Assembly (NCBI RefSeq): GCF_030362855.1 | Contig: NZ_JAUCBP010000010.1 | Coordinates: forward strand, 62,001-126,000 | DNA from: Neoalteromonas arenosi | GTDB lineage: Bacteria > Pseudomonadota > Gammaproteobacteria > Enterobacterales > Alteromonadaceae | Reading direction: 5' to 3' | DNA length: 64,000 nt | Part shown: piece after piece, positions 10,946 through 26,878 of the stretch | Layout of the letters: each line of letters opens with the position of its first letter | Position numbering within the stretch: position 1 is the stretch's first letter | Program-made: the position numbers and the translations under genes | The notes under the pieces: generated by a model | Told to the model about the DNA's origin: nothing | The model's input: the letters and a program-made list of their open reading frames with translations, nothing else | Database searches by the model: none

Positions 10946-12139
10946 GTGAGTGATCAAGCTGTTTTTTGTTTACACGGCCCAGTGAATTGGCAGCTTATGC
11001 CCCACGGTTCGCTGGCCAATAAACGCTTAGCAGTAAAAGACTTATTTGCTATCAAAGGCTTTAAAAACGGTGCGGGCAATCCTGATTGGTTGCGCCAAGC
11101 TAAACCGGCAGAGCATACCAGTGATGCAGTTAACAAGCTGATGCATCAAGGCTGTGAGTTAGTCGGGCTGACCCAAACAGACGAGATGGCCTATAGCTTA
11201 GAGGGCAACAATCAGCATTACGGTGCTGCTGAAAATCCGCGATTGCCAGGGCATGCCTGTGGTGGTTCTAGTATGGGATCCGCGGCAGCAGTCGCCGCTA
11301 ACTCAGCTGATATTGGCTTGGGTACTGATACGGGCGGTTCGATAAGAGTACCAGCGAGTTACTGTGGGTTATTTGGCATCCGCCCAAGCCACGGAGTTAT
11401 CGAACCAGCGGGTTTGTTGCCATTAGCTCCTGCGTTCGACACCACGGGATGGTTTTGTCAGCAGGCCGATTTACTCAGCCAAGTTGGCGATGTGTTACTA
11501 CCCGCCCAAGTACAGACAATCGTTGACGAGTTAGTCATTTTCGATGCGCTGTTTGAGCTGGTAGAGCCGTCATTGGCTAGGTTATTGCGCGCAGAACTTG
11601 AGCGAGTAAAACCGCATTTTAAAAAGGTTCGATCGCTGGAAATTGATGATCAGCAATTAATCTCGCAGCTAGCGGATGCGTTTCGCGTATTGCAAGGCCG
11701 TGAAATTGGGAGAACTCATGGCGATTGGGTAACTACTGCCAAGCCGCATTTTGCACCGCCTATCGCTCAGCGCTTTGCCATGGCGATGGCACTGACAGAA
11801 GCTGAAGAGCAACGAGCCAAGCAAGTACAGGCAAAGTGGTGTGCGCTACTGGCGGCTAATTTGTCGCCACACAGTGCGTTGTTTTTACCCACAACGCCAA
11901 CGACAGCGCCGCAGCTAGGTGCTGATACTACCGACCTGCGGATGCAAATACTAACGTTAACCGCGATAGCCGGTTTGGCCGGCGCTGCTCAAGTCCATTT
12001 GCCGCTAATTAATGTGCCGCTTGAAAAGCAAGTGGCACCCTATGGTTTTTCTTTGCTTATGACAGCAGGTAATGACCGCACACTATTGCAGTTAGTCAAA
12101 ACACTCACTGCATCATTAACGCAACAAGATGAGAATTGA
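10946..12139 (+). CDS. Amidase-signature hydrolase, candidate oxalurate/oxamate-pathway amidase
   Basis: The protein belongs to the GatA/AtzF amidase-signature family. The Ser-cisSer-Lys triad is intact: Lys31 in AVKDLF, Ser108 in GGSSMGS and Ser132 in GTDTGGS, with the expected 24-residue spacing between the serines. At 397 residues it is short for the family and lacks extra domains. It is the first gene of the operon; the start is GTG at 10946 with GAGG 8 bases before it. In Klebsiella purine (hpx) clusters an AtzE-type amidase accompanies hpxW. The downstream genes make oxalurate and, by family, hydrolyse oxamate, so this enzyme may hydrolyse oxalurate. That is inference; another amide or ureido compound is possible. 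Confidence 0.88.
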   Translation: MSDQAVFCLHGPVNWQLMPHGSLANKRLAVKDLFAIKGFKNGAGNPDWLRQAKPAEHTSDAVNKLMHQGCELVGLTQTDEMAYSLEGNNQHYGAAENPRLPGHACGGSSMGSAAAVAANSADIGLGTDTGGSIRVPASYCGLFGIRPSHGVIEPAGLLPLAPAFDTTGWFCQQADLLSQVGDVLLPAQVQTIVDELVIFDALFELVEPSLARLLRAELERVKPHFKKVRSLEIDDQQLISQLADAFRVLQGREIGRTHGDWVTTAKPHFAPPIAQRFAMAMALTEAEEQRAKQVQAKWCALLAANLSPHSALFLPTTPTTAPQLGADTTDLRMQILTLTAIAGLAGAAQVHLPLINVPLEKQVAPYGFSLLMTAGNDRTLLQLVKTLTASLTQQDEN

Positions 12140-13722
12140 TGATGAGCCAATTTAATATTGCATTTACCGCTCCTCATAAAACTGCCACGGAAGCTGGGAT
12201 GTTTATCTTGCGCCAAGGCGGTACAGCAACTGAAGCCATGGTCGCCGCTGCGGCAACTATTAGTGTGGTGTATCCACATATGAACTCAATTGGTGGTGAT
12301 AGTTTTTGGCTGATTGATAATCTTGGCGCAGATGCGCCAATTGCAATTGATGCCTGTGGTGCAGCGGCTGCTGATTTGGCTCAGTATCAAAGTGTAAAAG
12401 CTATTGCTGATCGGGGCGGTCGCAGCGCCATCACACAAGCGGGAACTATCAGTGGCTGGCATGCAGCGCTGCAAGCGGATAACAATGCGAAATTGCCATT
12501 GGCGACTGTTCTAAAGCCTGCCATAGATGTAGCTAAACAGGGTTTTGAGGTAACGCAAAGCTTGCAGATGGCCGCGGAAAAGTTATTTGCAACCGAGGGG
12601 CGCAATCAAGCGTTCAAAGACTTGTATGAGCCTAACGACAGACCGCTTCGACAAGGCGAGCACTTCACAAACCCAACGCTGGCACGCGTATTCGAACACC
12701 TTGCAGAACATGGGTTAATGGCATTCTACAGCGGCGAATTAGCGGCCAGTTTTGCGCGGGATTTAGCAGCTGCGGGCAGCTCAATAACCATTGAAGATAT
12801 TGCAGCCACTCAAGCGCAAGTAGTTACACCACTTAAAGCCAGTCTTGACGGCGTTGATTGTTACAATCTACCAGCGCCGACTCAAGGTGTTCACTCGCTG
12901 GCAATTTTGGCCATCATCGATCGTCTTAAGTCGCGCGCCATCTCTGACATCGACTGGATGCATTTAGTTGTTGAAGCCACGAAGCAAAGTTTCAATTTAC
13001 GCCCGCAAATATGGGGTGATCCAAATGCTGTCACTGAGCTTTATGAGCAAGTTTTACAGGCTCCGGTCATTGACCAATTAGCGCAAAATATTTCCATGTC
13101 CAAAGCTGAGCCTTGGCCGTTTAACGCGGCGCCTGGCGATACGGTATGGCTTGCTGCGCGAGATAAAAATGGTCAAATGGTGAGCTTTATTCAAAGTATC
13201 TATTGGGAGTTTGGCTCAGGTGTTGTGATGCGCGACGGCGGGTTTGTTTGGAATAACCGCGGGGTGAGTTTCTCGTTAGATCCGCGCGCTGTGAATAGTT
13301 TACAACCGCATAAAAAGCCTGCGCATACACTGAATCCGGCATTTGCGCGCTATCACGATGGACGCCGACTCGCTTACGGTACCATGGGTGGGGAAGGCCA
13401 GCCGCAAACCCAAGCCAAGGTGTTTACCGACTACACTTGGCGCGGTAAATCAGTCGTTGAGGCTGTTGCTTCGCCGCGCTGGTTACTTGGCCGTACGTGG
13501 GGCGATAGCAGCACAGATTTAAAAGTCGAACAACAACTTGCCGAGCAGTTGGGCTTTGAGCTCGATCGCTTGCGCCATAAGTGGCAGCCAGTGCCAGACA
13601 ACAATGAAATGATGGGCCATGCAGGGGCCATCCTTGATACTCAAACTCATCTAGAAGCCGCATCGGATCCGCGCTCCGACGGCCAAGCCAGCGTCGAATC
13701 TGCCGCTGAAGCACAATCGTAG
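12139..13722 (+). CDS. hpxW: Gamma-glutamyltransferase-family Ntn hydrolase, HpxW-like oxamate amidohydrolase
   Basis: This is a GGT-fold Ntn hydrolase made as a precursor that cuts itself before a Thr. The likely new N-terminal residue is Thr335 in PGDTVWLAARD, where GGTs have TTHxxVxD. The rest also fits: NSIGGDSFWLI, PAPTQG, and MGGEGQPQTQ near the C-terminus. In Klebsiella, HpxW turns oxamate into oxalate and ammonia at the end of an allantoin route through oxalurate, and this operon carries that route. There is no signal peptide, so it is cytoplasmic, unlike ordinary GGT. The ATG at 12139 shares one base with the preceding stop; 12142 is also possible. Confidence 0.82.
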   Translation: MMSQFNIAFTAPHKTATEAGMFILRQGGTATEAMVAAAATISVVYPHMNSIGGDSFWLIDNLGADAPIAIDACGAAAADLAQYQSVKAIADRGGRSAITQAGTISGWHAALQADNNAKLPLATVLKPAIDVAKQGFEVTQSLQMAAEKLFATEGRNQAFKDLYEPNDRPLRQGEHFTNPTLARVFEHLAEHGLMAFYSGELAASFARDLAAAGSSITIEDIAATQAQVVTPLKASLDGVDCYNLPAPTQGVHSLAILAIIDRLKSRAISDIDWMHLVVEATKQSFNLRPQIWGDPNAVTELYEQVLQAPVIDQLAQNISMSKAEPWPFNAAPGDTVWLAARDKNGQMVSFIQSIYWEFGSGVVMRDGGFVWNNRGVSFSLDPRAVNSLQPHKKPAHTLNPAFARYHDGRRLAYGTMGGEGQPQTQAKVFTDYTWRGKSVVEAVASPRWLLGRTWGDSSTDLKVEQQLAEQLGFELDRLRHKWQPVPDNNEMMGHAGAILDTQTHLEAASDPRSDGQASVESAAEAQS

Positions 13723-13731
13723 GAAATTTCG

Positions 13732-14556
13732 ATGTCTGAATTATTAGCCCAATGGCCGATTGTTGTTGCTCTCATTGCCACCGGTGTGTTTGCCGGAATA
13801 CTGGCAGGGTTGTTTGGTGTCGGTGGTGGCATTGTTATCGTGCCAGTACTGTATTTTTTATTACAAGGCTTCGGCGTCAGCGCCGAGTCGGCAATGATGA
13901 TTGCAACGGCTACGTCGTTGGCAACCATTGTTCCCACCTCAATATCTTCAATTCGCTCACATCATGCCAAAGGCAATGTGGATGTTGAGTTACTTAAATA
14001 TTGGGCCGGTTTTATTTTGTTAATGGCGGTTGTCGGAAGCGTATTTGCCCATTACATTCGTGGCAACGCGCTGACCTTAATGTTTGCCTGCATCGCTATT
14101 TTGGTGAGTTTAAATATGTTGTTCCGCGCCGGTGCGCCGGCACTCGCACAGCAACTACCGGGCAAATTGGGTCAGGCGATAATGGCCTCTACTGTAGGCG
14201 GTTTATCAGTCATGATCGGTATCGGTGGCGGTACCATTGGTGTGCCATTGCTCAGTGCATTTAACATTCGCGCGCACGTCGCAGTTGGCACCGCTGCGGT
14301 ATTTGGTCTGTTGATCGCACTACCCGGTGTGCTTACGTTGTTGGTGGTAGGGCAAACACCCACTGACGCGCCTATTGGCACCTTCGGCTTGGTTAATCTA
14401 CCGGCCTTTCTACTCATCATTCCACTGACTATCTTGTTCGCACCCGTAGGTGTGAAGATAGGCAGCAAACTCGACCCTAAACAATTAAAACGCGCTTTTG
14501 CCATAGTACTGATGCTCACCGGCCTGCGCATGTTTACGCAGGCGTTAGGAGTATAA
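13732..14556 (+). CDS. TauE/SafE (TSUP) family membrane transporter
   Basis: The 274-residue protein has about eight hydrophobic segments and the two internal repeats typical of the TSUP family, each with a glycine-rich motif (AGLFGVGGGIVIVP near residue 25, IGIGGGTIGVPLL near 160). TSUP proteins move small organic or sulfonate anions. Sitting 9 bases after hpxW and 4 bases before the aminotransferase gene, it probably carries a substrate or waste anion of the pathway, for instance oxalate or another ureide acid. AGGA stands before the ATG. Direction and substrate are not shown by sequence. Confidence 0.87.
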   Translation: MSELLAQWPIVVALIATGVFAGILAGLFGVGGGIVIVPVLYFLLQGFGVSAESAMMIATATSLATIVPTSISSIRSHHAKGNVDVELLKYWAGFILLMAVVGSVFAHYIRGNALTLMFACIAILVSLNMLFRAGAPALAQQLPGKLGQAIMASTVGGLSVMIGIGGGTIGVPLLSAFNIRAHVAVGTAAVFGLLIALPGVLTLLVVGQTPTDAPIGTFGLVNLPAFLLIIPLTILFAPVGVKIGSKLDPKQLKRAFAIVLMLTGLRMFTQALGV

Positions 14557-14560: not shown

Positions 14561-15790
14561 ATGACTAATTACACCGATATTCACACCCTAAACCCGCCGC
14601 AACGTCTGTTGATGGGGCCTGGCCCGATCAATGCTGACCCCCGTGTGTTACGCGCTATGTCAGCACAATTGATCGGTCAGTACGACCCAGCTATGACCGG
14701 TTTTATGAATGAAACCATGGCGCGCTATCGCCAGATCTTCAAGACCCAAAACAAATGGACGTTCTTGGTCGACGGTACGTCACGCGCCGGCATTGAAGCC
14801 GTGCTGGTTTCGATTCTGCGCCCTGGAGATAAAGTCTTAGTGCCAATTATGGGGCGTTTTGGCCACTTGTTAACTGAGATTTCTCAGCGCGTAGGGGCTG
14901 AAGTTCACACTATAGAAGTGCCTTGGGGAGAGGTGTTCCAACCGGAGCAAATTGAAGCGGCCATTAAACGCGTCAAACCGAATGTGTTGGCGATGGTGCA
15001 AGGGGATACATCGACCACTATGAACCAGCCACTGGCGCATATTGGCGCTATTTGCGCCCAGCACGATGTGTTGTTTTATTGCGATGCAACGGCATCGATT
15101 GTAGGCAACGAATTACCGGCCGATGAATGGCAGCTAGATGCATTATCGGTTGGTTTGCAAAAGTGTCTGGGTGGTCCTTCAGGTTCTGCGCCGCTGACCT
15201 TGAGCGACAAGTGTGTGGATTGGATCCGCACGCGCAAAAAGGTTGAAGCGGGTATTCGTACAGCCGCTCACCAAGATGGCACAGAGCCTTTTATACGCTC
15301 TAACTACTTTGATCTCGGTATGGTAATGGATTACTGGGGCGAAGAGCGCCTCAATCACCACACCGAGGCTACTAACATGCTTTATTGTGCATCGGAATGT
15401 GCGCGCATCGTTATTGAAGAGGGCGTCGACGAATGCGTTGCGCGCCATAAACTGCACGGTGATGCAATGCTCGTAGGGGTGCAAGCGATGGGTCTAAAAG
15501 TGTTTGGTGATATTCAAAACAAAATGAACAACGTCGTGGGCGTTTATATCCCTGACGAGGTTGACGGCGATGCTGTGCGCGGTCAGATGCTAGATGATTT
15601 TGGGATTGAAATTGGCACGTCATTTGGACCATTGCACGGCAAAATTTGGCGCATTGGCACTATGGGCTACAACGCGCGTAAAGATGCTGTGTTACAGACC
15701 TTGGCGTGCTTGGATGCATGCTTACAAGCCAATGGCTACAAAGGCCCTCATGGCGAAGCTACTGCAGCTGCGTTAGCGCATTACAAGTAA
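14561..15790 (+). CDS. pucG: (S)-ureidoglycine-glyoxylate aminotransferase (PucG/HpxJ type)
   Basis: This is a class V PLP aminotransferase of the alanine-glyoxylate aminotransferase group. The N-terminus (LLMGPGPINADPRVL), the phosphate-binding GTSRAG and the PLP Lys201 in GLQKCLGGPSG are clear. Close relatives in purine clusters (Bacillus PucG, Klebsiella HpxJ) move the amino group of ureidoglycine to glyoxylate, giving oxalurate and glycine. The gene for allantoate amidohydrolase, which makes ureidoglycine, follows 9 bases later, and hpxW lies two genes before. A plain serine- or alanine-glyoxylate aminotransferase is the alternative, but the context argues against it. AGGAG precedes the ATG. 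Confidence 0.88.
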   Translation: MTNYTDIHTLNPPQRLLMGPGPINADPRVLRAMSAQLIGQYDPAMTGFMNETMARYRQIFKTQNKWTFLVDGTSRAGIEAVLVSILRPGDKVLVPIMGRFGHLLTEISQRVGAEVHTIEVPWGEVFQPEQIEAAIKRVKPNVLAMVQGDTSTTMNQPLAHIGAICAQHDVLFYCDATASIVGNELPADEWQLDALSVGLQKCLGGPSGSAPLTLSDKCVDWIRTRKKVEAGIRTAAHQDGTEPFIRSNYFDLGMVMDYWGEERLNHHTEATNMLYCASECARIVIEEGVDECVARHKLHGDAMLVGVQAMGLKVFGDIQNKMNNVVGVYIPDEVDGDAVRGQMLDDFGIEIGTSFGPLHGKIWRIGTMGYNARKDAVLQTLACLDACLQANGYKGPHGEATAAALAHYK

Positions 15791-15799: not shown

Positions 15800-17107
15800 A
15801 TGAACGTACTTGATCCCCACACAATCACCCGGCATGGCAAACGCGCTATCGAGCGCTGCTTAGCGCTGAGTCGTATCAGCGAAATGGACGGCGGTATTTT
15901 ACGTCAGTATTTGACTGTTAAACATGCCGAGGCCAATCAACAGGCAGCGCGCTGGATGCAGCAAGCGGGAATGACTACTTGGCAAGATGAAGTTGGCAAT
16001 CAATGGGGCCGCTTAGCCTCGTCTGATCCCGCTGCTAAGCGCTTAATTGTTGGTTCACACTTAGACACTGTGCCCAATGCCGGCGCCTATGACGGAATTC
16101 TGGGGGTGATGCTGGCAATTGAACTTGCTGATCTTGCCCATCAACAGAGTGTTGAATTGCCGTTTCATTTAGATGTTGTGGGTTTTTGTGATGAAGAAGG
16201 TACTCGGTTTGGTGCTACCTTAATTGGCTCCAAAGCCTTGGCAGGCGACTTCAACGCTAATTGGCTCGAGCTGACCGATGAGCATGGCACTACTATGGCT
16301 GATGCGATGACTGTCTTTGGCCTCGACCCATTAAAAGTGCAGGATGCGGCTCTTGATCCAACCGAGTTACTCGCTTATTGGGAAACCCACATAGAGCAAG
16401 GCCCCGTGCTTGAGGCCCAGCAACAGGCCATTGGCGTTGTTACCGCTATCGCAGGTGCTAAACGTGCATTGGTGAGCTTTAAAGGCCGCGCTGGACACTC
16501 GGGTACAACGCCAATGCACATGCGCCAGGATAGCCTAGTGGCGGCGGCAGAATTCATTTGTAAAGTTGAACAATCAGCAGCGCAGTGCAGCAATAGTCAA
16601 GTTGCGACCGTGGGATATATCGACGCCAAACCCGGTGCGGTCAATGTTATAGCCGGTAAAACCACGCTCAGTTTAGATGTGCGCGCTCAGCAAGACAGTG
16701 AATTAGACCAATTGCTACACAGTATTGAGCACCATGCACAAGCGATAGCTGAGCAGCGTAATTTGACGCTGGAATGGCAGTGGACCCATGCCGCGGCGGC
16801 AGTTGCCTGTGATCAGCATATCATGCAGACCTTTATGGAAGCCTGTGCGCGAAACGATGAGTCAATTGCCCTGCTCCCCTCTGGCGCAGGGCACGACGCT
16901 ATGGCTATAGCGACAAAGTGTCCGGTCGGCATGTTGTTTGTGCGCAGTCCCGGAGGCGTAAGCCATCATCCATCAGAAACGGTGGTCGAAGAGGATGTGG
17001 CACGGGTATTGGCGGTGATGTATTCGGCGTTAGCAATTCAGATTGCCAAGACGCAAGAAACCTACGAGCCGGTGACGCACGACGATGTAGCTTTGGCTGC
17101 AGGCTAA
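15800..17107 (+). CDS. allC: Allantoate amidohydrolase (M20 family)
   Basis: The enzyme splits allantoate to (S)-ureidoglycine, ammonia and carbon dioxide. The binuclear metal site of the M20 group is complete: GSHLDTVPNAGAYDG (His, Asp), CDEEGTRFGATLIGS (Glu-Glu), ETHIEQGP (His) and SHHPSE (His) near the C-terminus. Its 435 residues are slightly longer than the usual 410-420. Related N-carbamoyl-amino acid hydrolases look alike; the operon favours allantoate. No ureidoglycolate enzyme (AllA-type) is seen next to it, in keeping with the aminotransferase route. Confidence 0.9.
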   Translation: MNVLDPHTITRHGKRAIERCLALSRISEMDGGILRQYLTVKHAEANQQAARWMQQAGMTTWQDEVGNQWGRLASSDPAAKRLIVGSHLDTVPNAGAYDGILGVMLAIELADLAHQQSVELPFHLDVVGFCDEEGTRFGATLIGSKALAGDFNANWLELTDEHGTTMADAMTVFGLDPLKVQDAALDPTELLAYWETHIEQGPVLEAQQQAIGVVTAIAGAKRALVSFKGRAGHSGTTPMHMRQDSLVAAAEFICKVEQSAAQCSNSQVATVGYIDAKPGAVNVIAGKTTLSLDVRAQQDSELDQLLHSIEHHAQAIAEQRNLTLEWQWTHAAAAVACDQHIMQTFMEACARNDESIALLPSGAGHDAMAIATKCPVGMLFVRSPGGVSHHPSETVVEEDVARVLAVMYSALAIQIAKTQETYEPVTHDDVALAAG

Positions 17108-17153: not shown

Positions 17154-18662
17154 GTGATTCAGTTTTTGTTAAACAATACGCCAGTGACGGTTGAGAATAG
17201 CAGACCGACCATCACACTCTTAGACTGGTTGCGCAAAGACCGAGGTTTGGTCGGCACCAAAGAAGGTTGCGCCTCAGGTGATTGTGGCGCATGCACGCTA
17301 TTGGTAGGTGAGCAAGTTGCACATGGCTCCAGCGAAAAACAATGGCGCTATAAAACGATCAATAGTTGTTTAATGTTACTCGGCAATGCGCATGGCAAAC
17401 ACATCGTTACCGTTGAGGCGGTAACGCAAAATTTGTATGCCGATGTTGATGAGTTGCATCCAGTGCAAAAAGCCATGGTTGAAAGCCACGGCTCGCAATG
17501 CGGTTTTTGTACGCCAGGCATTATCATGAGTTTACTCGCACTGTACATTAACAATGCAAGCTATCCAGGTAAGAAGGCAGTAATCCACGCTCTGGGTGGA
17601 AACCTGTGTCGCTGTACCGGGTATCAGCCGATCCTCAAAGCCGCTGAAAAAGCCTTTGAATACGAACGTCAGCCGGTGGCTTGGGCTGCTACTGCGGACA
17701 GTTTCGCGCGCAGTTTAAGGAATGCTGGCAATAGCCTAAAAGAAATTCCTAGCCTGCGCTTTGAGCAAAATCATTTCTATGTGCCACAATCGTTAAAACA
17801 ACTAGTAAATCTTAAAAACCAGTGTCCCGAGGCGCGTTTGATTGCTGGCGGTACAGATCTCAGCATTGAATTCACGCAACAGCTCACCGAGCCTGCGATC
17901 ATTATCTCCGTTACGCAGGTGACCGAACTTATTCAGGTGAGTGATTCAGGCGATGGACTGGTCATCGGCGCCGCAGCGACTTATGCCGACTTCATCGAGC
18001 TATTCTGTCGCCACTACCCCGAGAGTAAAGAGCTATTCGAGCGCTTGGGTTCAGAACAAATCCGCAATGGTGGTACTTTAGGGGGGAGCTTAGGAAATGC
18101 TTCGCCGATTGGCGATCCGGCGCCCTTGCTGATTGCCCTTGATGCTACCCTAGAGCTTGTTTCCATTGCCGGTACGCGACACGTTAAAGTAGAAGATTTC
18201 TTTACCGGTTATCGGCAAACGGTGCTAACCGCGAATGAAGTGATTCGCCAAGTTTTAATACCCAAGCGCCCGGCATCGTTAAAACTTGCAAGCCACAAAA
18301 TTTCGAAGCGTTTTGAAGATGATATTTCCACGGTATGTTTGGTATTAGCCGTGGACCATGCCGACGATCAAATTACTGCGGTGCGCTGCGCAATGGGCGG
18401 AATGGCAGCGTTGCCAGCGCGGGCCAAAACGGTCGAACAGCAGCTACTCGGTGCGAGCTTGAGCCAGCACAGCTTTAATCAAGCGGCAAGCGCGCTAGCG
18501 CAAGATTTCTCACCCATGTCGGATGTACGCGCCAGTGCTGAATATCGCCTAACGGTTAGTCAAAACTTACTTACCCGTATTGGTTATGAGTTCTGTCAGC
18601 CAATTGATGTGGTTAACGTTGCTGAGCAACCAGCCGTGAGGATTGCCCATGCGTCACTTTGA
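17154..18662 (+). CDS. xdhA: Xanthine dehydrogenase small subunit (2Fe-2S and FAD)
   Basis: This subunit takes electrons from the molybdenum site through two 2Fe-2S clusters to FAD and NAD+. The plant-type cluster lies at residues about 35-75 (EGCASGDCGAC) and the second at about 115-160 (CGFCTPG and NLCRCTGYQPI). The FAD domain follows (IAGGTDLSIE, NGGTLGGSLGNASPIGD). The GTG start at 17154 has AGAGGA 7 bases before it. The 46-base gap before it is the largest inside the operon and holds no clear promoter. The end overlaps xdhB by 14 bases. Confidence 0.96.
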   Translation: MIQFLLNNTPVTVENSRPTITLLDWLRKDRGLVGTKEGCASGDCGACTLLVGEQVAHGSSEKQWRYKTINSCLMLLGNAHGKHIVTVEAVTQNLYADVDELHPVQKAMVESHGSQCGFCTPGIIMSLLALYINNASYPGKKAVIHALGGNLCRCTGYQPILKAAEKAFEYERQPVAWAATADSFARSLRNAGNSLKEIPSLRFEQNHFYVPQSLKQLVNLKNQCPEARLIAGGTDLSIEFTQQLTEPAIIISVTQVTELIQVSDSGDGLVIGAAATYADFIELFCRHYPESKELFERLGSEQIRNGGTLGGSLGNASPIGDPAPLLIALDATLELVSIAGTRHVKVEDFFTGYRQTVLTANEVIRQVLIPKRPASLKLASHKISKRFEDDISTVCLVLAVDHADDQITAVRCAMGGMAALPARAKTVEQQLLGASLSQHSFNQAASALAQDFSPMSDVRASAEYRLTVSQNLLTRIGYEFCQPIDVVNVAEQPAVRIAHASL

Positions 18663-21012
18663 GATGGATAAACTAAAAGCGCGCGGTGGCAGCGTCGGGC
18701 AATCGAAATTCCACGACAGCGCTGTTAAGCAAGTGTGCGGTAGCGCCAAATATGTCGATGACAATCCTGAACCCGCCGGGTGTCTGCATGCCTATCCGGT
18801 ATTAGCGCCGATCACTCGTGGCGTAGTCAAATCCATTGATACCCGTAAGGCTGAAGCATTAGCGGGTGTGGTGCGGATCTTTACAGCCAGTGATGTGCCT
18901 GGAAAGCTGGACATTGGCCCGGTCTTTCCCGGTGATATCCTCCTGACCGACAATGAAATTCAATACCACAATCAACCGGTATTGTTAGTGGTTGCTAAGA
19001 GTTACGACGTCGCTCGACGCGCTGCACGAATGGTCGAGATTGAGTGTAGAAGCAGCGAAGCCGTGCTAGACATTAAAACTGCGGTAGAGCAGCAGAACTG
19101 GGTTAGACCTCCACATTCATTGCAACGCGGCGATGCTGAAGCAGCGATTGCCAATGCTGCGCATACGCTTTCAGGTGAGCTGCACGTCGGTGGCCAAGAG
19201 CACTTCTACTTGGAAGGCCAGGTAGCAATGACTGCACCCAATGAAGATGGCGGTATGTCAGTGTATTGTTCTACCCAGCACCCCACTGAAGTTCAGCATT
19301 TAGTAGCCAAAGTACTCAAGCAGCCGTTTCACTTTGTCACGGTTGAAACCCGTCGTATGGGCGGCGCTTTTGGTGGCAAAGAAACTCAAGCGGCACCTTG
19401 GGCCTGTTTAGCGGCATTGGCCACTTATCATTTGGGCTGTGCGGTAAAATTGCGTTTAGCGCGAGCGGATGATTTTCGTTTAACTGGTAAGCGTCACCCT
19501 TTTTACAATCACTATCGCGTCGGTTTTAACGACGATGGTTTGGTTGAAGGCGTGCACATTGAGGTTAATGGCTTTTGTGGTTACTCGCCGGACTTGTCTG
19601 ACGCAATTGTCGACCGTGCCATGTTTCACGCCGATAATGCTTACTACTATCCGGCGGCAAAAATCATCGGTAACCGCTGTAAAACCAACACTATGAGCCA
19701 CACTGCATTTCGTGGTTTTGGTGGCCCGCAGGGCATGATTGTGGCTGAGCTGATCATGGATGATATTGCTGCTGCACTGGGCAAAGATCCGCTCGATGTG
19801 CGCAAAGCGAATTTGTACCAACCGGGACGCGACGTAACGCCATACCATCAAACGGTCGAGCAGCATGTGATGGGCGATATGATCGCGCAACTTGAACGCG
19901 ATGCTGATTATCGTCAGCGCCGCGCGGCGATTAAACAGCACAATAGCAACTCGCCTTTTATCAAAAAGGGGTTGTCGATGACGCCAGTGAAATTTGGTAT
20001 TTCTTTTACTGTGCAGCACCTCAATCAAGCCGGTGCGTTAGTGCATGTATATTCAGACGGTTCCATTCACCTCAATCACGGTGGCACCGAAATGGGCCAG
20101 GGACTTAATACCAAAGTGGCGCAAATTGTAGCGCATGCCTTTGGCGTCGATTTTGAAACCGTCGGCATTACTGCCACACGCACCGATAAGGTGCCCAATA
20201 CATCACCTACAGCGGCGTCTAGCGGCACAGATTTAAACGGCATGGCGGCGCTTAATGCGGCCAATACCATCAAACAGCGCTTAGTTGATTTTATCGCCGA
20301 GTATTTTGGCGTAGAAGCGGAAAGTGTTGAGTTCAACAACAACCAAGTGACCTACGACAATGGCCAAATAAGCTTTGCAGAGTTAGCTAATTTGGCTTAC
20401 ATGAAACGCATTTCACTTTCATCAACCGGGTATTACGCTACACCCAAAATACACTACGACAGAGAGAAAGCCGAGGGACGTCCATTCTTCTACTACGCGC
20501 ACGGTGTTGCATTAAGCGAAGTAGAGGTGGATGTCCTCACTGGTGAAAACACCGTTACCCGCGTTGATATTTTGCATGACGTCGGCAGCTCGATTAATCC
20601 CGCATTGGACGTTGGTCAAATTGAAGGGGCGTTTATTCAAGGTATGGGATGGCTGACGACTGAAGATTTGCAATGGAATGACGATGGCAAGCTGGCCAGT
20701 TTTGGGCCGGCTACCTACAAGATCCCAGCCATTGGTGATACACCGGCGGAGTTTAATGTGTCGTTATATGATTCAGCGAATCCGGAAACTTCAGTATTTC
20801 GCTCTAAAGCCGTTGGTGAGCCGCCCTTTATGCTGTGTTTCAGTGTATGGAGCGCAATTCGCGATGCAGTAAGCAGTATCACCGATTACCGCTATTTGCC
20901 GAGTATTGACACACCAGCTACACCGGAGCGGGTGCTTAACGCCGTTAATGTCAGTAAAGCCTGGTTAGCCAAACAAACCTCTAATGCGGAACCGGAGTCG
21001 ACTCATGTCTGA
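18649..21012 (+). CDS. xdhB: Xanthine dehydrogenase molybdopterin subunit
   Basis: This is the catalytic subunit that oxidises hypoxanthine and xanthine to urate. Molybdopterin-contact motifs are all present: GGAFGGKE, FRGFGGPQG, GTEMGQGLNTK and the catalytic Glu724 in AVGEPP. I chose the ATG at 18649 because GAGG is 7 bases upstream; a TTG six bases earlier is also in frame. It has 787 residues, the usual size for two-subunit bacterial enzymes. It overlaps xdhA by 14 bases and xdhC by 8 bases. Confidence 0.96.
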   Translation: MRHFEMDKLKARGGSVGQSKFHDSAVKQVCGSAKYVDDNPEPAGCLHAYPVLAPITRGVVKSIDTRKAEALAGVVRIFTASDVPGKLDIGPVFPGDILLTDNEIQYHNQPVLLVVAKSYDVARRAARMVEIECRSSEAVLDIKTAVEQQNWVRPPHSLQRGDAEAAIANAAHTLSGELHVGGQEHFYLEGQVAMTAPNEDGGMSVYCSTQHPTEVQHLVAKVLKQPFHFVTVETRRMGGAFGGKETQAAPWACLAALATYHLGCAVKLRLARADDFRLTGKRHPFYNHYRVGFNDDGLVEGVHIEVNGFCGYSPDLSDAIVDRAMFHADNAYYYPAAKIIGNRCKTNTMSHTAFRGFGGPQGMIVAELIMDDIAAALGKDPLDVRKANLYQPGRDVTPYHQTVEQHVMGDMIAQLERDADYRQRRAAIKQHNSNSPFIKKGLSMTPVKFGISFTVQHLNQAGALVHVYSDGSIHLNHGGTEMGQGLNTKVAQIVAHAFGVDFETVGITATRTDKVPNTSPTAASSGTDLNGMAALNAANTIKQRLVDFIAEYFGVEAESVEFNNNQVTYDNGQISFAELANLAYMKRISLSSTGYYATPKIHYDREKAEGRPFFYYAHGVALSEVEVDVLTGENTVTRVDILHDVGSSINPALDVGQIEGAFIQGMGWLTTEDLQWNDDGKLASFGPATYKIPAIGDTPAEFNVSLYDSANPETSVFRSKAVGEPPFMLCFSVWSAIRDAVSSITDYRYLPSIDTPATPERVLNAVNVSKAWLAKQTSNAEPESTHV

Positions 21013-21940
21013 TCCAAATAACATGTCACTCAATCAATCTCATCAAGGCTTTCACAGTCTAACTTGGTCGCAAGCGATTGCGCAGCTTGAGCGAGAAGGC
21101 ACTGATTATGTGATTGCTACAGTATTGGGTACCAGTGGTTCAACACCGCGCGCGTCGGGAACAAAAATGGTGATCACTGGCGAGCATATTTTCGATACCC
21201 TCGGCGGCGGGCACCTAGAATTTAAAGTAATCGAAAAGGCGCGTAGCTTATTGACGCAAGGTGAGCCTGCTCAAGCGCTTGAGCAATTCCATTTAGCTGC
21301 CAACTTAGGCCAGTGCTGTGGCGGTGCCGCTGTGGTCATGTTTGAGGTTATGGTTAGTGAGCATATGCAGCTTGACGTCTATGGTGCTGGTCATGTGGCG
21401 CAAGCGTTAATACCTATTTTGGCGCAATTACCCATCCGGATCCGTTGGATTGATAACCGTGCCGATGTTTTTCCGGCCAACATTCCAGCCAATGTCACTA
21501 AAGTTGTGGATGATGAACCGGTAGAGGTGGCTAAACGAGCCAAGGCGGGCAGCGCCTATTTGATACTCACCCACAATCATCACTTAGATTTTGAATTAGT
21601 CTGCGCCATTTTAAAGCGCAATGACGCCTTGTGGCTGGGCGTCATTGGCTCTGCTACCAAAGCAAAACGGTTTCGTCATCGCCTTGCCCATCGCGACTTC
21701 AGCCCTGCCCAAATAGAGACGATGATTTGTCCTGTGGGGGTGCCTAATGTGGCGGGTAAATTACCGATGGAAGTCGCTGTTTCTATTGCTGGGCAAGTGA
21801 TTGGTCTATATCAGCAACAGACTACGCCGCCACAAAGTCGACGAGGATTGCAATGGCAACAGCTAAAGCAGGCCTTTGAGTTATCTAACAATGAACAAGT
21901 AGTAGCGCCTACAGCGGCGCATAAGGTTACTGGAGAGTGA
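21005..21940 (+). CDS. xdhC: Xanthine dehydrogenase accessory protein XdhC
   Basis: XdhC binds molybdenum cofactor, supports its sulfuration and inserts it into XdhB. The N-terminal CoxI-type region (ATVLGTSGSTPRASGTKM) and the C-terminal Rossmann part (VYGAGHVAQAL, LGVIGSATKAKR) are both visible. The ATG at 21005 lies inside the end of xdhB, and is preferred over an in-frame codon at 20984 because CGGAG stands before it. The last bases overlap the GTG start of uraD. Confidence 0.94.
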   Translation: MSDPNNMSLNQSHQGFHSLTWSQAIAQLEREGTDYVIATVLGTSGSTPRASGTKMVITGEHIFDTLGGGHLEFKVIEKARSLLTQGEPAQALEQFHLAANLGQCCGGAAVVMFEVMVSEHMQLDVYGAGHVAQALIPILAQLPIRIRWIDNRADVFPANIPANVTKVVDDEPVEVAKRAKAGSAYLILTHNHHLDFELVCAILKRNDALWLGVIGSATKAKRFRHRLAHRDFSPAQIETMICPVGVPNVAGKLPMEVAVSIAGQVIGLYQQQTTPPQSRRGLQWQQLKQAFELSNNEQVVAPTAAHKVTGE

Positions 21941-22437
21941 GTTTAACAACGTTGAATAATGCCACCGCAGAGCAGGCGTCTGTGATGTTAGAGAGCTGTT
22001 GCGTTGCACCGAATTGGGTTTCTGCCATGGTGGCAAAGCGGCCGTTTGATTCTGCGCAACAGCTGTTTAATGCAGCGGATGCTGTTTGGTGTGAGCTAGG
22101 TGAAACTGACTACTTGGCCGCTTTTGAAGGACATCCACAAATTGGTGACGTGTCGACCCTGCGTGAAAAATACGCAGCAACCGCTGATAAAGCCGGTCAT
22201 GAACAGTCGGGGATGCAAGTCGCCACTGACGAAATGTTACAAGAAATGATGCGCTTGAATAAGGCCTATTTAGACAAGTTTGGATTTATTTTTATTGTTT
22301 GTGCCACAGGCAAGTCAGCCAATGAAATGTTGGGGTTGATCCGCGCGCGAGTCTGCAATGATCGCGCTACTGAATTGGCCATCGCCGCTGGCGAACAAGC
22401 AAAAATTACGCGTATTCGATTGGAGAAGTTACTGTGA
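21937..22437 (+). CDS. uraD: OHCU decarboxylase
   Basis: This enzyme decarboxylates 2-oxo-4-hydroxy-4-carboxy-5-ureidoimidazoline to (S)-allantoin. The family signature is present: a helix-rich 166-residue protein with FEGHPQIGD (catalytic His) and the C-terminal IRARVCNDRATELAIAAGEQAKITRIRL. It starts with GTG overlapping the xdhC stop (GTGA) and its own stop overlaps the uraH start, so the three are translationally coupled. Confidence 0.95.
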   Translation: MSLTTLNNATAEQASVMLESCCVAPNWVSAMVAKRPFDSAQQLFNAADAVWCELGETDYLAAFEGHPQIGDVSTLREKYAATADKAGHEQSGMQVATDEMLQEMMRLNKAYLDKFGFIFIVCATGKSANEMLGLIRARVCNDRATELAIAAGEQAKITRIRLEKLL

Positions 22438-22775
22438 GCAAGAGCCCAATTACCACCCATATTCTCGATACCGCTACAGGCACGCCGGCAGCTGGCGTCC
22501 CGGTCGTATTGTATAAACTCGAACAAGACAGTTGGGTTGAGCTTACCCGAGGCGCAACAGACTATGATGGTCGCATTACTGATTGGTTGTCTGGGGTAGA
22601 GGTAACATTTGGCACTTACAAATTGCACTTTGATTTAGACACTTATTTTGCCGAGCAACCAGAACCCGCATTCTACCCCTTTGCTGAGATTTGCTTCCGC
22701 CGTCAAGATAACAAACATCACCATATTCCTTTGCTATTAGCCCCATTTGGCTACTCTACCTATCGAGGGAGCTAG
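22434..22775 (+). CDS. uraH: 5-Hydroxyisourate hydrolase (transthyretin-like)
   Basis: The enzyme opens the ring of 5-hydroxyisourate to OHCU. The 113-residue transthyretin-like chain has the N-terminal THILDTATGTPA motif (active-site His), the conserved Arg in the middle strand region, HHHIPLLLAPFGYSTYRGS near the end, and the C-terminal YRGS tetrapeptide that marks HIU hydrolases. There is no signal peptide. It overlaps uraD by 4 bases. Confidence 0.96.
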   Translation: MSKSPITTHILDTATGTPAAGVPVVLYKLEQDSWVELTRGATDYDGRITDWLSGVEVTFGTYKLHFDLDTYFAEQPEPAFYPFAEICFRRQDNKHHHIPLLLAPFGYSTYRGS

Positions 22776-22777
22776 TG

Positions 22778-24142
22778 ATGAGCATTGAGCACGCTAAGCG
22801 TAAAATCATCTGCGCGGATATTCTCGATTTTCTCGACGATCCCAGCATTGCTGGCGATGATGCCGTGCGTTATTTCGAACAGGGCGCTTTGGTTATTGAC
22901 CAGGGCAAAGTACTAGACTTAGGTGCTGAAAAAGACATTGTGGCCAAGTATGCTGACATCACGGAAGTTGTTCGTCACGATGGCAAGTTGCTGGTTCCAG
23001 GATTGATTGATACTCATATTCACTTACCGCAAACCGAAATGATCGGCTCCCACGGTGAACAATTGCTGACCTGGTTGACCGAGTATGCCTTTCCAACCGA
23101 GAAGAAGTTTGCCGACCATGCCTATGCTGCAGATATTTCCAAGCGTTTTCTTGATGAACTACTGCGCAATGGCACCACAACCGCCATGGTGTTTGGTACT
23201 GTGCATCCAGAATCGGTCGATGCCTTTTTTACTGAAGCACAACAGCGCCGTATGCGTATGATTGCTGGAAAGGTGTTGATGGATCGCAATTGTCCCGAAG
23301 ATTTAGCCGATACGCCCGAGCTGGGCTACAGCCAATCCAAAGCCTTAATTGAAAAATGGCACAATGTTGACCGTTTAGCCTACGCGGTAACACCGCGATT
23401 TGCACCGACCTCAAGTCATGAGCAGCTGGCGGCCTGTAAGCAATTGCTCGATGAATACCCCGATGTATACATGCAATCACATTTATCGGAAAACATTGAG
23501 GAATGTGAATGGGTAGATAAATTATTTCCCGCGTCAGATGACTATTTAGGCGCCTATGAAGATGCGGGTTTAGTGCGCAAGCGCGCGGTTTTCGCTCACG
23601 GCATTCACTTATCGGAGCGCGAGTTAATCTCATTGGCAAAACACCAAGCGGCGTTGTCACATTGTCCCACTTCCAATTTGTTTTTGGGCTCTGGGTTATT
23701 CAACTTAAAGGCTTGTGAAAAGCACAAAGTAACCGTGGGAATGGGCACGGATGTGGGTGCTGGAACGAGTTTTTCACTGCTGCAAACCGGTAGCGAAGCA
23801 TACAAAATACAGCAGCTTCAAGGTGAAAACTTTACCGCATTTAAAGGCTTATATCTGGCTACTCTAGGTGGCGCCAGGGCCCTCGATCTGGAAGGCTCCA
23901 TTGGTAATTTTACGCCCGGTTGTGAAGCAGATTTTGTTATCTTGGATCATCACGCGACACCGTTTTTGAGCTTCCGCCTGCAGCATGCCAAAACCCTCCA
24001 CGAGCGCCTGTTCGCGATCATGATGCTTGGCGATGACCGCTGTATTGAGCATACCTATGTGCTTGGTGATTGCATTTATCAGCGCGACGCGCAGCCGCAA
24101 TTTGCGTCATCTAACACCACGCCACTAAGGGAAGTGAGCTAA
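22778..24142 (+). CDS. guaD: Guanine deaminase
   Basis: The enzyme converts guanine to xanthine and feeds the XdhAB step. It is an amidohydrolase with the metal site HIH in GLIDTHIHLPQTEMIG, SHLSEN, AHGIHLS and a late Asp in GMGTDVGAGTSFS. The HLPQ and CPTSNLFLGSG motifs are typical of GuaD. The ATG at 22778 has GAGGGA 7 bases before it; a GTG one codon earlier is possible. It begins 2 bases after uraH. Confidence 0.95.
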   Translation: MSIEHAKRKIICADILDFLDDPSIAGDDAVRYFEQGALVIDQGKVLDLGAEKDIVAKYADITEVVRHDGKLLVPGLIDTHIHLPQTEMIGSHGEQLLTWLTEYAFPTEKKFADHAYAADISKRFLDELLRNGTTTAMVFGTVHPESVDAFFTEAQQRRMRMIAGKVLMDRNCPEDLADTPELGYSQSKALIEKWHNVDRLAYAVTPRFAPTSSHEQLAACKQLLDEYPDVYMQSHLSENIEECEWVDKLFPASDDYLGAYEDAGLVRKRAVFAHGIHLSERELISLAKHQAALSHCPTSNLFLGSGLFNLKACEKHKVTVGMGTDVGAGTSFSLLQTGSEAYKIQQLQGENFTAFKGLYLATLGGARALDLEGSIGNFTPGCEADFVILDHHATPFLSFRLQHAKTLHERLFAIMMLGDDRCIEHTYVLGDCIYQRDAQPQFASSNTTPLREVS

Positions 24143-24145: not shown

Positions 24146-25348
24146 ATGCAGAGTTACTTTTTTGAGATTGCCCATTTAGTGTTGCGTTACTTCCACGTTA
24201 TCGCTGGGATCGCGTGGATTGGTGCATCCTTTTACTTCGTCTGGCTCGACAACAATTTACAAACCCCGCCACAATGGAAAAAAGACAAAGGGATCCGCGG
24301 CGACTTGTGGGCCATTCACGGTGGTGGCTTTTATGAAGTGGCCAAATATCAAAACGGCCCTGAGCAAATGCCATCGACCCTGCATTGGTTTAAGTGGGAA
24401 GCCTACACCACTTGGATAACCGGCATGCTGTTATTTAGCTTGATGTATTACATCGGCGCAGATGCTTACCTGTTAGATCCGGCGAAATCCAATATTGATA
24501 AGCTTCGTGCTATTGGCTCGTCAATGGCGTTTATTGCGGTTGGTTATGCGATTTACCGGGGTTTGTGTAAAACCAAACTAGTCGACAATGGCTATGCATT
24601 CACAGTAGTTGTTATTGCGCTACTTGCGTTGGCTACTTGGGGACTGGACCAGCTGTTCACTGACCGCGCGGTGTATATTCATATTGGTGCATTGGTTGGT
24701 ACTTGTATGGCCGGTAATGTTTATCATGTGATTATGCCGGGGCAAAGGTATATGGTGGCCGAAGTAGAAGCAGGACGCATTCCTGATCCGGCGCCGGGAT
24801 TAAAAGCCAAGCAGTGTTCGGTGCACAACAACTACGCCACGCTGCCGGTGATTTTTATCATGCTCAGCAATCACTTTGCCTATACCTACAGTCATACGTA
24901 CGGCTGGTTGGTATTAATTGGGCTATTCATTATCGGCATGTGGATCCGTCATTTCTTTAACTTAAAGCACCAAGGGGTCGACAAACCGCAAGTACTTATC
25001 AGTGGTATAGCCGCGTTTTTTGCGTTAATGCTAGCCATTGCACCGTGGCACTTAATGCAAACTGGCGAAAGCGAGAACACCGTTGCCGTGACCGATGCAC
25101 AAGCTTGGCAGATCATTGATAAACACTGCACAGAGTGTCACAGCCAAAGCCCGCGCTCTGCGATGTTTCCCACCGCGCCAGCAGGGTTTGTACTAGATTC
25201 AATTGACGAAGCGAAACAAGGCATTCAGCTTATTCAAGCGCGGGCCATCATAACTCAAGATATGCCACTGGCCAATCTCACCCAAATGACAGCAGAAGAG
25301 CGCGCGCAACTTGCCACTTGGTTAAAGGCGCTAGAGGCACAGGACTAA
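24146..25348 (+). CDS. puuD: Membrane-bound urate hydroxylase with cytochrome c domain
   Basis: PuuD oxidises urate to 5-hydroxyisourate and passes electrons to the respiratory chain instead of making hydrogen peroxide. About eight membrane segments fill residues 1-310 with conserved His residues (YFHVIAGIAWIG, LHWFKWE). A cytochrome c domain follows, with the haem motif Cys328-x2-Cys331-His332 and a Met near DMPLANL as a likely axial ligand. It lies 3 bases after guaD and 3 bases before puuE. No soluble uricase is present, so this is the only urate-oxidising step in the operon. Confidence 0.94.
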   Translation: MQSYFFEIAHLVLRYFHVIAGIAWIGASFYFVWLDNNLQTPPQWKKDKGIRGDLWAIHGGGFYEVAKYQNGPEQMPSTLHWFKWEAYTTWITGMLLFSLMYYIGADAYLLDPAKSNIDKLRAIGSSMAFIAVGYAIYRGLCKTKLVDNGYAFTVVVIALLALATWGLDQLFTDRAVYIHIGALVGTCMAGNVYHVIMPGQRYMVAEVEAGRIPDPAPGLKAKQCSVHNNYATLPVIFIMLSNHFAYTYSHTYGWLVLIGLFIIGMWIRHFFNLKHQGVDKPQVLISGIAAFFALMLAIAPWHLMQTGESENTVAVTDAQAWQIIDKHCTECHSQSPRSAMFPTAPAGFVLDSIDEAKQGIQLIQARAIITQDMPLANLTQMTAEERAQLATWLKALEAQD

Positions 25349-25351
25349 ACA

Positions 25352-26287
25352 ATGGCGGATAACTCCTATAACAATTACCCGCGCGACATGCAGGGCTACG
25401 GCGCTGATGTGCCCCACGCCAAGTGGCCAAACAAAGCCAGAATAGCGATACAAGTAGTGATGAACTACGAAGAAGGCGGTGAAAACTGCGTCTTACACGG
25501 TGACCCTGCGGCAGAAACTTTTTTATCAGAAATCGTGAGCGCACCGCATGTAGAAGACCGCCATATGAGTATGGAGTCTGTCTACGAATATGGCAGCCGC
25601 GCTGGCGTTTGGCGGTTGTTGCGATTGTTTGACAAATACGACATTCCCATCACGGTATTTGCGGTTGCTATGGCGCTTAAACGGCATCCTGAAATCGCTA
25701 AAGCCTGCATGGCGGCAGGTCACGAGATTTGTAGTCACGGGCTGCGGTGGATCAACTATCAGAATGTTGATATCGATACTGAGCGCCAGCATATGCAAGA
25801 AGCGGTTAGGATTATCGAAGCCATTACCGGTGCAAAGCCGAAAGGTTGGTATACCGGTCGCACTAGCCCCAACACTGGTAAGCTAGTTGCCGAAAATGGT
25901 GGCTTTGTTTACGACGCCGATGATTACAGTGACGACTTACCGTTTTGGAAAACCGTTGGCGACAAACAGCAGTTAATTGTTCCTTACACTCTGGATGCTA
26001 ATGATATGCGCTTTGCCGCCGTGCAAGGTTTTAACGCGGGCGATCAGTTCTATAACTACCTGAAAGATGCGTTCGATGTGCTGTATGAAGAGGGTGATCC
26101 AAAAGGATTGGATCGGCCGAAAATGATGTCGATTGGCCTGCACTGCCGCTTAATCGGACGCCCCGGCCGGCTTAAAGCACTAGAACGTTTTTTCCAGTAT
26201 GCCAAATCCTTTGATGACGTGTGGTTTGCCCGCAGAATTGATATTGCTGAGCATTGGCAGCAACTGCACCCATACAAATCTGCGTAA
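25352..26287 (+). CDS. puuE: Allantoinase, polysaccharide deacetylase type
   Basis: PuuE opens allantoin to allantoate. Its 311 residues have the NodB-like barrel without the metal site of true deacetylases. Family motifs include YEEGGENCVLHGD near residue 33, GHEICSHGLRW near 128 and YTGRTSPNT near 170. It is not related to the amidohydrolase-type allantoinase AllB, which is absent here. It lies next to puuD, the same pairing as in pseudomonads. Confidence 0.95.
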   Translation: MADNSYNNYPRDMQGYGADVPHAKWPNKARIAIQVVMNYEEGGENCVLHGDPAAETFLSEIVSAPHVEDRHMSMESVYEYGSRAGVWRLLRLFDKYDIPITVFAVAMALKRHPEIAKACMAAGHEICSHGLRWINYQNVDIDTERQHMQEAVRIIEAITGAKPKGWYTGRTSPNTGKLVAENGGFVYDADDYSDDLPFWKTVGDKQQLIVPYTLDANDMRFAAVQGFNAGDQFYNYLKDAFDVLYEEGDPKGLDRPKMMSIGLHCRLIGRPGRLKALERFFQYAKSFDDVWFARRIDIAEHWQQLHPYKSA

Positions 26288-26311
26288 CCTAATATTAGAA
26301 ATGAGCCTGTC

Positions 26312-26878
26312 ATGACAACAAAGAAATTTATTACCTCACAAGAACTCCTCGAAGACTCATTTCGTCTTGCCGATCAAGTGTTTGAGGATGGTTTTAGACC
26401 AGACTTTATCATCGGTATCTGGCGCGGCGGCGCCCCGATTGGAATAGCGGTACAGGAGTACTTTGATTTTAAAGATGTTGAAACCGATCACATTGCAGTA
26501 CGCACTTCGTCTTATTACGGTATTGGCCAAGTTTCTAAGACCATTAAAGTGCATGGTTTGCATTACCTCATTGAAGAAGCGAACGCCGATGATTCACTGT
26601 TGATTGTAGATGATGTGTTTGACTCAGGTCGCTCAATTGAGGCGTTAATTGCGCGTATTCGCAAGTTGTCGCGCTTAAATACGCCAAGCGACATTCGCAT
26701 AGCCTGCCCGTGGTTTAAGCCTAAGAACAACAAAACTGACTTAACGCCTGATTACTACCTACGCGAGAGCGACGAATGGTTAGTGTTCCCGCATGAACTC
26801 TCGGGCCTCACACCAGAAGAGCTTATCGATGGAAAACAAGAGCTGGCAGGGATAAAAGATATTTTGTTAAAGAAGTAA
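26312..26878 (+). CDS. Purine-type phosphoribosyltransferase
   Basis: The type I PRTase motif is plain: LLIVDDVFDSGRSI near residue 95, with an N-terminal GIWRGGAPIG flexible region. The 188-residue protein resembles hypoxanthine/guanine/xanthine phosphoribosyltransferases, which remake nucleotides from free bases. It is the last gene of the operon, 24 bases after puuE, and would let the cell choose between salvage and breakdown of the same base. The exact base is not clear from motifs. No strong terminator follows; only a weak long-loop AGCCTTT/AAAGGCT pair. Confidence 0.85.
   Translation: MTTKKFITSQELLEDSFRLADQVFEDGFRPDFIIGIWRGGAPIGIAVQEYFDFKDVETDHIAVRTSSYYGIGQVSKTIKVHGLHYLIEEANADDSLLIVDDVFDSGRSIEALIARIRKLSRLNTPSDIRIACPWFKPKNNKTDLTPDYYLRESDEWLVFPHELSGLTPEELIDGKQELAGIKDILLKK

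Follow-up and report, generated by a model that had tools for sequence, protein, structure and literature searches.

A 64,000-nt stretch of contig NZ_JAUCBP010000010.1 of Neoalteromonas arenosi (here called the window) contains 14 open reading frames on the + strand at 10946-26878, with no internal stops. The 13 junctions between them measure, in order, -4, 9, 4, 9, 46, -20, -29, -4, -4, -1, 3, 3, and 24 bases. The sequence-only reading had described 14 same-strand genes joined by overlaps or by gaps of 46 bases at most, and this layout was borne out. The window gave no match to Rfam at the gathering score, and no tRNA was found in it.

The genes for every step from guanine to ureidoglycine were identified by homology, as that reading had also claimed (coordinates are on the + strand unless noted). 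Curated family cut-offs were exceeded by the xanthine dehydrogenase small subunit XdhA (17154..18662, TIGR02963), the large subunit XdhB (18643..21012, TIGR02965), the XdhC maturation factor (20984..21940, TIGR02964), the OHCU decarboxylase UraD (21937..22437, TIGR03180), the hydroxyisourate hydrolase UraH (22434..22775, TIGR02962), the guanine deaminase GuaD (22775..24142, TIGR02967), and the allantoinase PuuE (25352..26287, TIGR03212). The allantoate amidohydrolase (AllC/HpxK-like; 15800..17107) scored 545.3 against the NF006775 cut-off of 479. The membrane urate oxidase PuuD (24146..25348) was assigned by PF06181, and a CTECH haem motif can be read in its sequence. GuaD would convert guanine to xanthine; XdhABC would oxidize xanthine to urate; PuuD, UraH, and UraD would give allantoin; PuuE would give allantoate, and AllC/HpxK ureidoglycine. 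The last gene encodes a phosphoribosyltransferase (26312..26878, PF00156), possibly for purine salvage and not needed for the route. Thus, the gene list and order proposed for the operon stand, but three of the 14 products (XdhC, the TauE protein described below, and the phosphoribosyltransferase) are not route enzymes. A xanthine/uracil-type permease (29622..30914, - strand, PF00860) is a candidate importer.

The ureidoglycine-glyoxylate aminotransferase (UGAT, HpxJ/PucG; 14561..15790) has 3nnk as its best PDB match (638.5 bits). The HpxW-like Ntn hydrolase (12136..13722), a predicted oxamate amidohydrolase, best matches 5hft, which we take to be HpxW. Its Thr 336 aligns, in sequence, with the first residue of 5hft chain B, the Ntn threonine. 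Neither protein reached an NCBIfam cut-off among the matches listed, and their identities rest on the PDB matches, which support the earlier placement of an HpxW-like hydrolase after UGAT in the route. UGAT would pass the amino group of ureidoglycine to glyoxylate, giving glycine and oxalurate; HpxW would convert oxamate to oxalate and ammonia. The reported substrate of Klebsiella HpxW is oxamate, as cited in PMC5270733. Likeness to HpxW alone does not fix the substrate, because HpxW stands without a nearby amidase, TauE, UGAT, or AllC in 29 of the 80 loci retained after a genome scan (judged by a distance rule; some of these loci lie on short contigs). In public records, the Pseudoalteromonas counterparts of these proteins are called gamma-glutamyltransferase and alanine--glyoxylate aminotransferase family protein.

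The step from oxalurate to oxamate had been left empty in a route otherwise supported overall; the best candidate is the first gene (10946..12139), which encodes an amidase-signature hydrolase. This protein exceeds the curated cut-off of NF006169 (PRK08310; 398.1 vs 391 bits), as do two of three relatives from the recurrent module described below (L033, 395.1; L036, 407.6), the third being under it (L043, 379.3). Residues K31, S108, and S132 are invariant in all 43 aligned sequences, and by analogy with the amidase-signature family they may form a Lys-Ser-Ser triad. The structure model (pLDDT 92.6) has structural neighbours with Z up to 46.3, among them 6c62 (Z 44.2), presumably the AtzE complex, and the allophanate hydrolase 4cp8 (Z 43.2). 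Judged from this model, the neighbours do not tell the substrate. The amidase is a single chain of 397 aa. It shares 30% identity with Lonsdalea HpxY across 346 aa and is without about 52 of the N-terminal residues of HpxY; it falls under the AtzE-family cut-off (174.9 vs 461). The NF006169 match, the Lys/Ser/Ser conservation, and the exclusion with HpxX and AllG described below are the basis for predicting the first gene as the oxalurate-to-oxamate enzyme. The single-subunit amidase would cut the ureido end of oxalurate to give oxamate, ammonia, and CO2, and all five purine nitrogens would be recovered without urea or urease.

The amidase-HpxW-(TauE)-UGAT-AllC block, referred to as the module, was found in 40 of the 80 loci. 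In a Thalassotalea MAG (L039) the order is RutR-like, RraA, amidase, HpxW, TauE, UGAT, AllC, XdhA, XdhB, XdhC, UraD, UraH, and the start of GuaD at the locus end. A Reinekea locus (L043) retains the amidase through UraH, and in other loci only the five leading genes have stayed together. The gene order, which had been suggested as something to seek in other genomes, therefore recurs and is not due to chance. Two observations bear on horizontal transfer: an HpxW orthologue is present in none of three same-genus genomes, and the GC content is 0.498 in the operon vs 0.469 outside. The distance matrices of four module genes, taken over 39 loci and the window, are correlated (r 0.84-0.91); shared species history alone could be enough to give this.

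UGAT, HpxW, the amidase, HpxX, and AllG were sought in 394 genomes of the order; for queries A1, A2, and A4, scoring covered the 3-4 top first-look candidates of each genome, and some matches were possibly missed. UGAT and HpxW occur together in 57 genomes. The amidase adjoins HpxW in 34 of these and HpxX does so in 19; none has both, and four have neither. AllG is present in all four of the latter. At least one of the three oxalurate systems (amidase, HpxX, AllG) was found in 69 of 70 UGAT genomes, the exception being G368. The HpxX genomes all belong to one family (20 of 20), nine of them also with AllG, and the exclusion between amidase and HpxX is partly phylogenetic. The known systems can be seen in other loci. 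In a Rhodospirillales locus, AllG-FdrA-carbamate kinase-AllH genes lie between UGAT and HpxW; in Lonsdalea, HpxW is followed by HpxX, an AtzE-family amidohydrolase that occupies the position of HpxY, and HpxZ. A 12 kb contig (L072) carries HpxW-TauE-UGAT without amidase, AllG, or HpxX. The N. arenosi genome has no HpxX match and no AllG match, and AllFGH was rejected as its oxalurate system on the latter count.

Upstream of the operon lie genes for a TetR-family regulator with a RutR/YcdC-type C-terminal domain (9465..10127, PF08362) and for an RraA-like/4-hydroxy-4-methyl-2-oxoglutarate aldolase-like protein (10124..10606, NF009134, 197.7 vs 196). The regulator is RutR-like only, being under the TIGR03613 (RutR) equivalog cut-off (173.8 vs 368 bits). 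Two palindromes resemble the RutR consensus: one upstream of the regulator gene (9405..9420, 1 mismatch) and one just before the operon start (10913..10928, 2 mismatches). The promoter-like TAGGCA-17-TATAAT (10883..10911) is a consensus match that scored highest on the + strand across the region examined, in a scan that found 21 sites vs 19.0 in shuffles. The operon is probably under the control of the RutR-like TetR protein. By the rule used, L039 has such boxes both upstream of its RutR-like gene and before the amidase, L040 and L041 only before the amidase, and L042 in neither place. The box is a weak marker of the module in general: allowing up to 2 mismatches, 7 of 40 module loci have one in the roughly 400 bases that precede them.

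The predicted oxalate end point is supported by homology and by the genes that are absent. AllE was over its cut-off in none of 30 searched genomes (two weak matches, one of them in the N. arenosi genome at 19.5 bits vs a cut-off of 200), and ureidoglycolate lyase (PF04115) was found in none of the 30 at E <= 0.001, with a positive E. coli control. The glyoxylate for UGAT had been expected to come from elsewhere, which is compatible with an isocitrate-lyase-like match in the genome. Ureidoglycine might instead decay or be hydrolysed to ureidoglycolate and glyoxylate, with the HpxW-like protein acting as a gamma-glutamyltransferase. The thermal instability of ureidoglycine, stated in PMC4016543, and the public names of the Pseudoalteromonas counterparts fit this ending, but it is very improbable given the missing genes; moreover, the HpxW-like protein is under the gamma-glutamyltransferase cut-off, its best match is 5hft, and two further proteins of that type are matched elsewhere in the genome. 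It is also unlikely, though less so, that the amidase cuts the other amide bond of oxalurate, releasing oxalate and urea, or has a different ureide as its substrate, with HpxW serving a side substrate. In Paraburkholderia, a relative of the amidase (37%) shares its locus with HpxZ, a RutB-like hydrolase, and an AtzE-family amidohydrolase; in Azospirillum, another (39%) adjoins HpxZ and has a DUF1116 gene nearby. Therefore, other ureide substrates are possible. Urease was over its cut-off in 11 of the 30 genomes, but not in that of N. arenosi. Further, the amidase adjoins HpxW in all 34 genomes of the order found with amidase, UGAT, and HpxW, and the reported oxamate substrate of Klebsiella HpxW speaks against a side role.

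The cargo of the TauE/SafE transporter (13732..14556, PF01925) is less settled. TauE adjoins HpxW in 35 of the 40 module loci. It does so as well in TRAP-TauE-HpxW cassettes of Marinobacterium and Hydrogenophaga, in which tblastn turned up no further enzyme of the types encoded in the window; export is predicted on these grounds, and TauE would move oxalate out of the cell. Transport of another cargo in either direction (e.g. sulfite or a ureide), with oxalate used inside the cell, is a serious possibility that falls somewhat short of even odds, and is compatible with the rest of the route. PF01925 is named for sulfite export, and TauE is absent from that place in five module loci (Vibrio, Psychromonas) and from eight TRAP-HpxW loci. 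On the other side, beside the two cassettes, oxalyl-CoA decarboxylase was over its cut-off in none of the 30 genomes, N. arenosi included. Within the incomplete coverage of the open-access literature, no title or abstract was found on TauE as an oxalate exporter or on this amidase as an oxalurate enzyme.

The route had been said to differ from the common ureidoglycolate/glyoxylate ending. The genes of that ending are indeed absent, but the ending found is a known HPX-type one (HpxJ, HpxK, HpxW). The Klebsiella HPX pathway (hpxJK, hpxWXYZ) shares the aminotransferase, the AllC/HpxK partner, HpxW, and the predicted oxalurate, oxamate, and oxalate; hence, an oxalate ending is of a known kind. However, the window has PuuD where Klebsiella has HpxO, and a single 397 aa amidase, HpxX being absent from the genome and HpxZ from the operon. 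The genes from guanine onward also lie in a single operon, and TauE is present. On sequence grounds, the amidase in place of HpxX/HpxY appears to be a variation on the known pathway. The E. coli oxamate branch (AllFGH, AllK), as given in PMC11326118, also leads from oxalurate to oxamate, but it does so by a phosphorolytic carbamoyltransferase and goes no further than oxamate, whereas the operon continues with HpxW. AtzE (1-carboxybiuret hydrolase) and allophanate hydrolase share the amidase-signature fold; however, the operon has no AtzG/HpxX-type gene. The PuuD clusters of PMC4562309 likewise have a membrane urate oxidase with a CxxCH motif among purine genes; that paper does not appear to treat this ending, since the word "ureidoglycine" is absent from its main text.

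Taken together, these analyses suggest, with a probability of about 0.7, a compact operon for purine nitrogen scavenging that runs from guanine to oxalate via the amidase and HpxW, with TauE exporting oxalate and RutR-like control. It is predicted to strip all nitrogen from guanine and leave oxalate, with a simple amidase at one late step for which better-known bacteria rely on other machinery. The chances seem evenly balanced that this stand-alone amidase provides a third way from oxalurate to oxamate, non-orthologous to HpxXY and AllFGH, which with a TauE oxalate exporter forms a urea- and urease-free route widespread in marine gammaproteobacteria, the carbon being discarded as oxalate. The module gives predicted functions to genes publicly called amidase family protein, gamma-glutamyltransferase, TauE/SafE exporter, and alanine--glyoxylate aminotransferase. 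Incomplete allantoin degradation is reported in PMC12021255 for Alteromonas macleodii ATCC 27126, and the module would be a candidate answer if that strain carries it. It also predicts that marine bacteria may release oxalate during purine nitrogen scavenging.

The sequence-only reading had placed fourteen same-strand ORFs in one operon (10946-26878, + strand), and these were borne out with no internal stops and with junctions of -29 to +46 bases. Xanthine dehydrogenase and its maturation factor, UraD, UraH, AllC, guanine deaminase and PuuE are backed by curated family models. PuuD was identified by a PF06181 match; its CTECH motif is an instance of the CXXCH type, reported in PMC4562309 as strictly conserved in PuuD. 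The last gene (26312-26878) encodes a phosphoribosyltransferase; Colwellia (L040) and Reinekea (L043) also have a relative (51-53%) close to these genes, on the opposite strand. Elsewhere in the window, 40347-46355 (- strand) encodes a protein of 2002 aa that matches nSTAND1 NTPase (PF20703) and WD40-type repeats. No HpxW orthologue was found in the three same-genus genomes (G001-G003; best matches 31-32%); the operon is therefore patchy within the genus.

The window aminotransferase has its top PDB match in 3nnk, named ureidoglycine-glyoxylate aminotransferase (UGAT; 638.5 bits), followed by PucG 3isl (455.4 bits). The gamma-glutamyltransferase-like protein (12136..13722) falls below the GGT cut-off (301.5 vs 357.85). 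Its top PDB match is 5hft, in an alignment that pairs Thr 336 with the first residue of the second chain. The PDB name of 5hft is gamma-glutamyltranspeptidase only; we take it to be the Klebsiella oxamate amidohydrolase HpxW. HpxX and HpxZ are named oxalurate catabolism proteins in NCBIfam. The two top PDB matches, with the HpxW activity (oxamate amidohydrolase) cited in PMC5270733, uphold the predicted oxalate end point as homology. Such an ending is of the already-known HPX type.

Ahead of HpxW action, oxalurate would have to be converted to oxamate. The product of the first operon gene (10946..12139) is an amidase-signature protein and belongs to family NF006169. K31, S108, and S132 do not vary across an alignment of 43 sequences, taken from the window, L033-L035, and 39 of the 40 module loci described below; by family resemblance they probably form the catalytic triad. 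Since K31 pairs with K83 of Lonsdalea HpxY, the window amidase is shorter by about 52 residues at its N-terminus; this shortening would fit the lack of an HpxX partner. The predicted structure, a confident model (mean pLDDT 92.6), has its closest solved folds (Z 43-46) among enzymes including 2dc0, GatA-type subunits, malonamidase E2, the 6c62 enzyme, and allophanate hydrolase. These fold neighbours suggest that small amides and ureides are hydrolysed, without fixing the substrate. More distant relatives (37-39% identity) occur at L127:7147-11080, L126:7186-11476, and L125:4555-12327, where the neighbours are hydrolases (RutB-like or cysteine), an AtzE-family protein, HpxZ or a gamma-glutamyltransferase (in L126, 37% identical to the window HpxW). 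Their neighbourhoods suggest a broader ureide role.

A genome-contig scan with an HpxW alignment gave at least 486 relatives among the candidates examined, and the best 80 loci were kept. They include Thalassotalea, Colwellia, Pseudoalteromonas, Reinekea, Alteromonas, Paraglaciecola, Marinomonas, Vibrio, Psychromonas, and Tolumonas. An amidase-type gene adjoins HpxW in 41 of these 80; one is the Lonsdalea HpxY and was set aside. The module amidase was thus found in 40 of the best 80 loci, all with UGAT and AllC and 35 with TauE. In other ARRANGEMENTS, AllG, AllF, AllK, and AllH genes occur together with UGAT and HpxW in six of the best 80 (L069, L083, L087, L097, L099, and L113), which are alphaproteobacteria by title except L113, a Granulosicoccaceae MAG. 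One misfit is a Halieaceae locus (L072:9174-12251), HpxW-TauE-UGAT, whose 12 kb contig shows none of the three oxalurate systems (module amidase, HpxX, AllG). In public records, two Pseudoalteromonas plasmids carry RutR-like and RraA-like genes with the five module genes, of which four have generic names and the fifth is called allantoate amidohydrolase.

Whether the three systems exclude one another was examined across 394 genomes from the order to which the window belongs. UGAT was found in 70 (E <= 1e-100), the amidase in 39 (E <= 1e-70), and HpxW in 60 (E <= 1e-100), each scored on the best 3-4 candidates per genome. HpxX was found in 20, all over cut-off, and AllG in 25 of the 73 genomes having UGAT or HpxW. 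The amidase threshold was deliberately strict, to keep HpxY-type amidases uncounted; weaker matches occur in five genomes without UGAT or HpxW. Among the 57 genomes with UGAT and HpxW, 34 have the amidase no more than 2.5 kb from HpxW and lack both HpxX and AllG; 19 carry HpxX near HpxW (2.5 kb) without the module amidase; and four have neither there, with AllG present. The UGAT-only genomes (n=13) have AllG in 11, HpxX in one, and none in one (G368). Therefore, one or more of the three systems is present in 69 of the 70 genomes with UGAT. In 33 of the 34 amidase genomes, UGAT and HpxW are no more than 6 kb apart; in the other (G392), UGAT is on a separate contig. These 34 represent six families (14, 12, 3, 2, 2, and 1 genomes). 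The 19 HpxX genomes are not independent, because HpxX is confined to one family; AllG also occurs in nine of the 20 HpxX genomes. Within genus g52, the amidase occurs in two genomes and AllG in one (G297, no HpxW match).

The fate of oxalate and the source of glyoxylate were surveyed in 30 genomes: the own genome, three from its genus, Lonsdalea, and 25 others that carry the module. Oxalyl-CoA decarboxylase was over cut-off in none (weaker related matches in all 30, best 226 bits vs 739), nor was AllE (two weak matches); in both searches one of 14 control genomes was over cut-off, with E. coli among the controls giving matches. Ureidoglycolate lyase was found in none of the 30 at E <= 0.001, with E. 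coli as the matching control. Urease was over cut-off in 11 of the 30, not including the own genome, which gave only three weak matches. An isocitrate-lyase match over cut-off (548 aa frame) offers a candidate glyoxylate source. TRAP importer genes, TauE, and HpxW stand in a row in Marinobacterium (L104:6108-11554) and Hydrogenophaga (L111:6027-11551), and tblastn detected no further window-type enzyme at either locus. This points to the HpxW product as the TauE cargo, and the row is possibly a minimal oxamate-scavenging cassette. The link is not universal, because TauE was not found at eight TRAP-HpxW loci (L080, L082, L085, L094, L096, L100, L106, and L116).

Regulation may involve a RutR-like 16-base palindrome, judged against what we take to be the E. 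coli RutR site consensus. One such box, at 9405, precedes the RutR-like gene; a second, at 10913, precedes the operon and is just 3' of a promoter-like TATAAT. When the 340 bases upstream were put through 500 single-base shuffles, no shuffle reached <=2 mismatches, and related versions of both boxes are present in L039. The whole window holds nine matches with <=3 mismatches vs 2.8 expected, one 2-mismatch box lies inside an unrelated gene at 42892, and a good box is missing from most module loci. An RraA-like gene (10124-10606) lies between the regulator and the operon, and is kept in L039-L042 and the two plasmids.

A 2025 Alteromonas macleodii curation (PMC12021255) reports a puuD homologue, states that genes completing allantoin degradation to glyoxylate were not identified, and predicts excretion of allantoin, allantoate or ureidoglycolate. 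Among the open-access papers listed in literature searches, none dealt with the NF006169 amidase of the module by title or abstract. The L072 misfit and the limited scoring of the order searches slightly lower our confidence, to about 0.70, in the best explanation: a purine-nitrogen operon with amidase, HpxW, and TauE, probably ending in oxalate. The pathway type is already known; the novelty lies in the extent of the operon, in an amidase that stands alone, and in the link with TauE.
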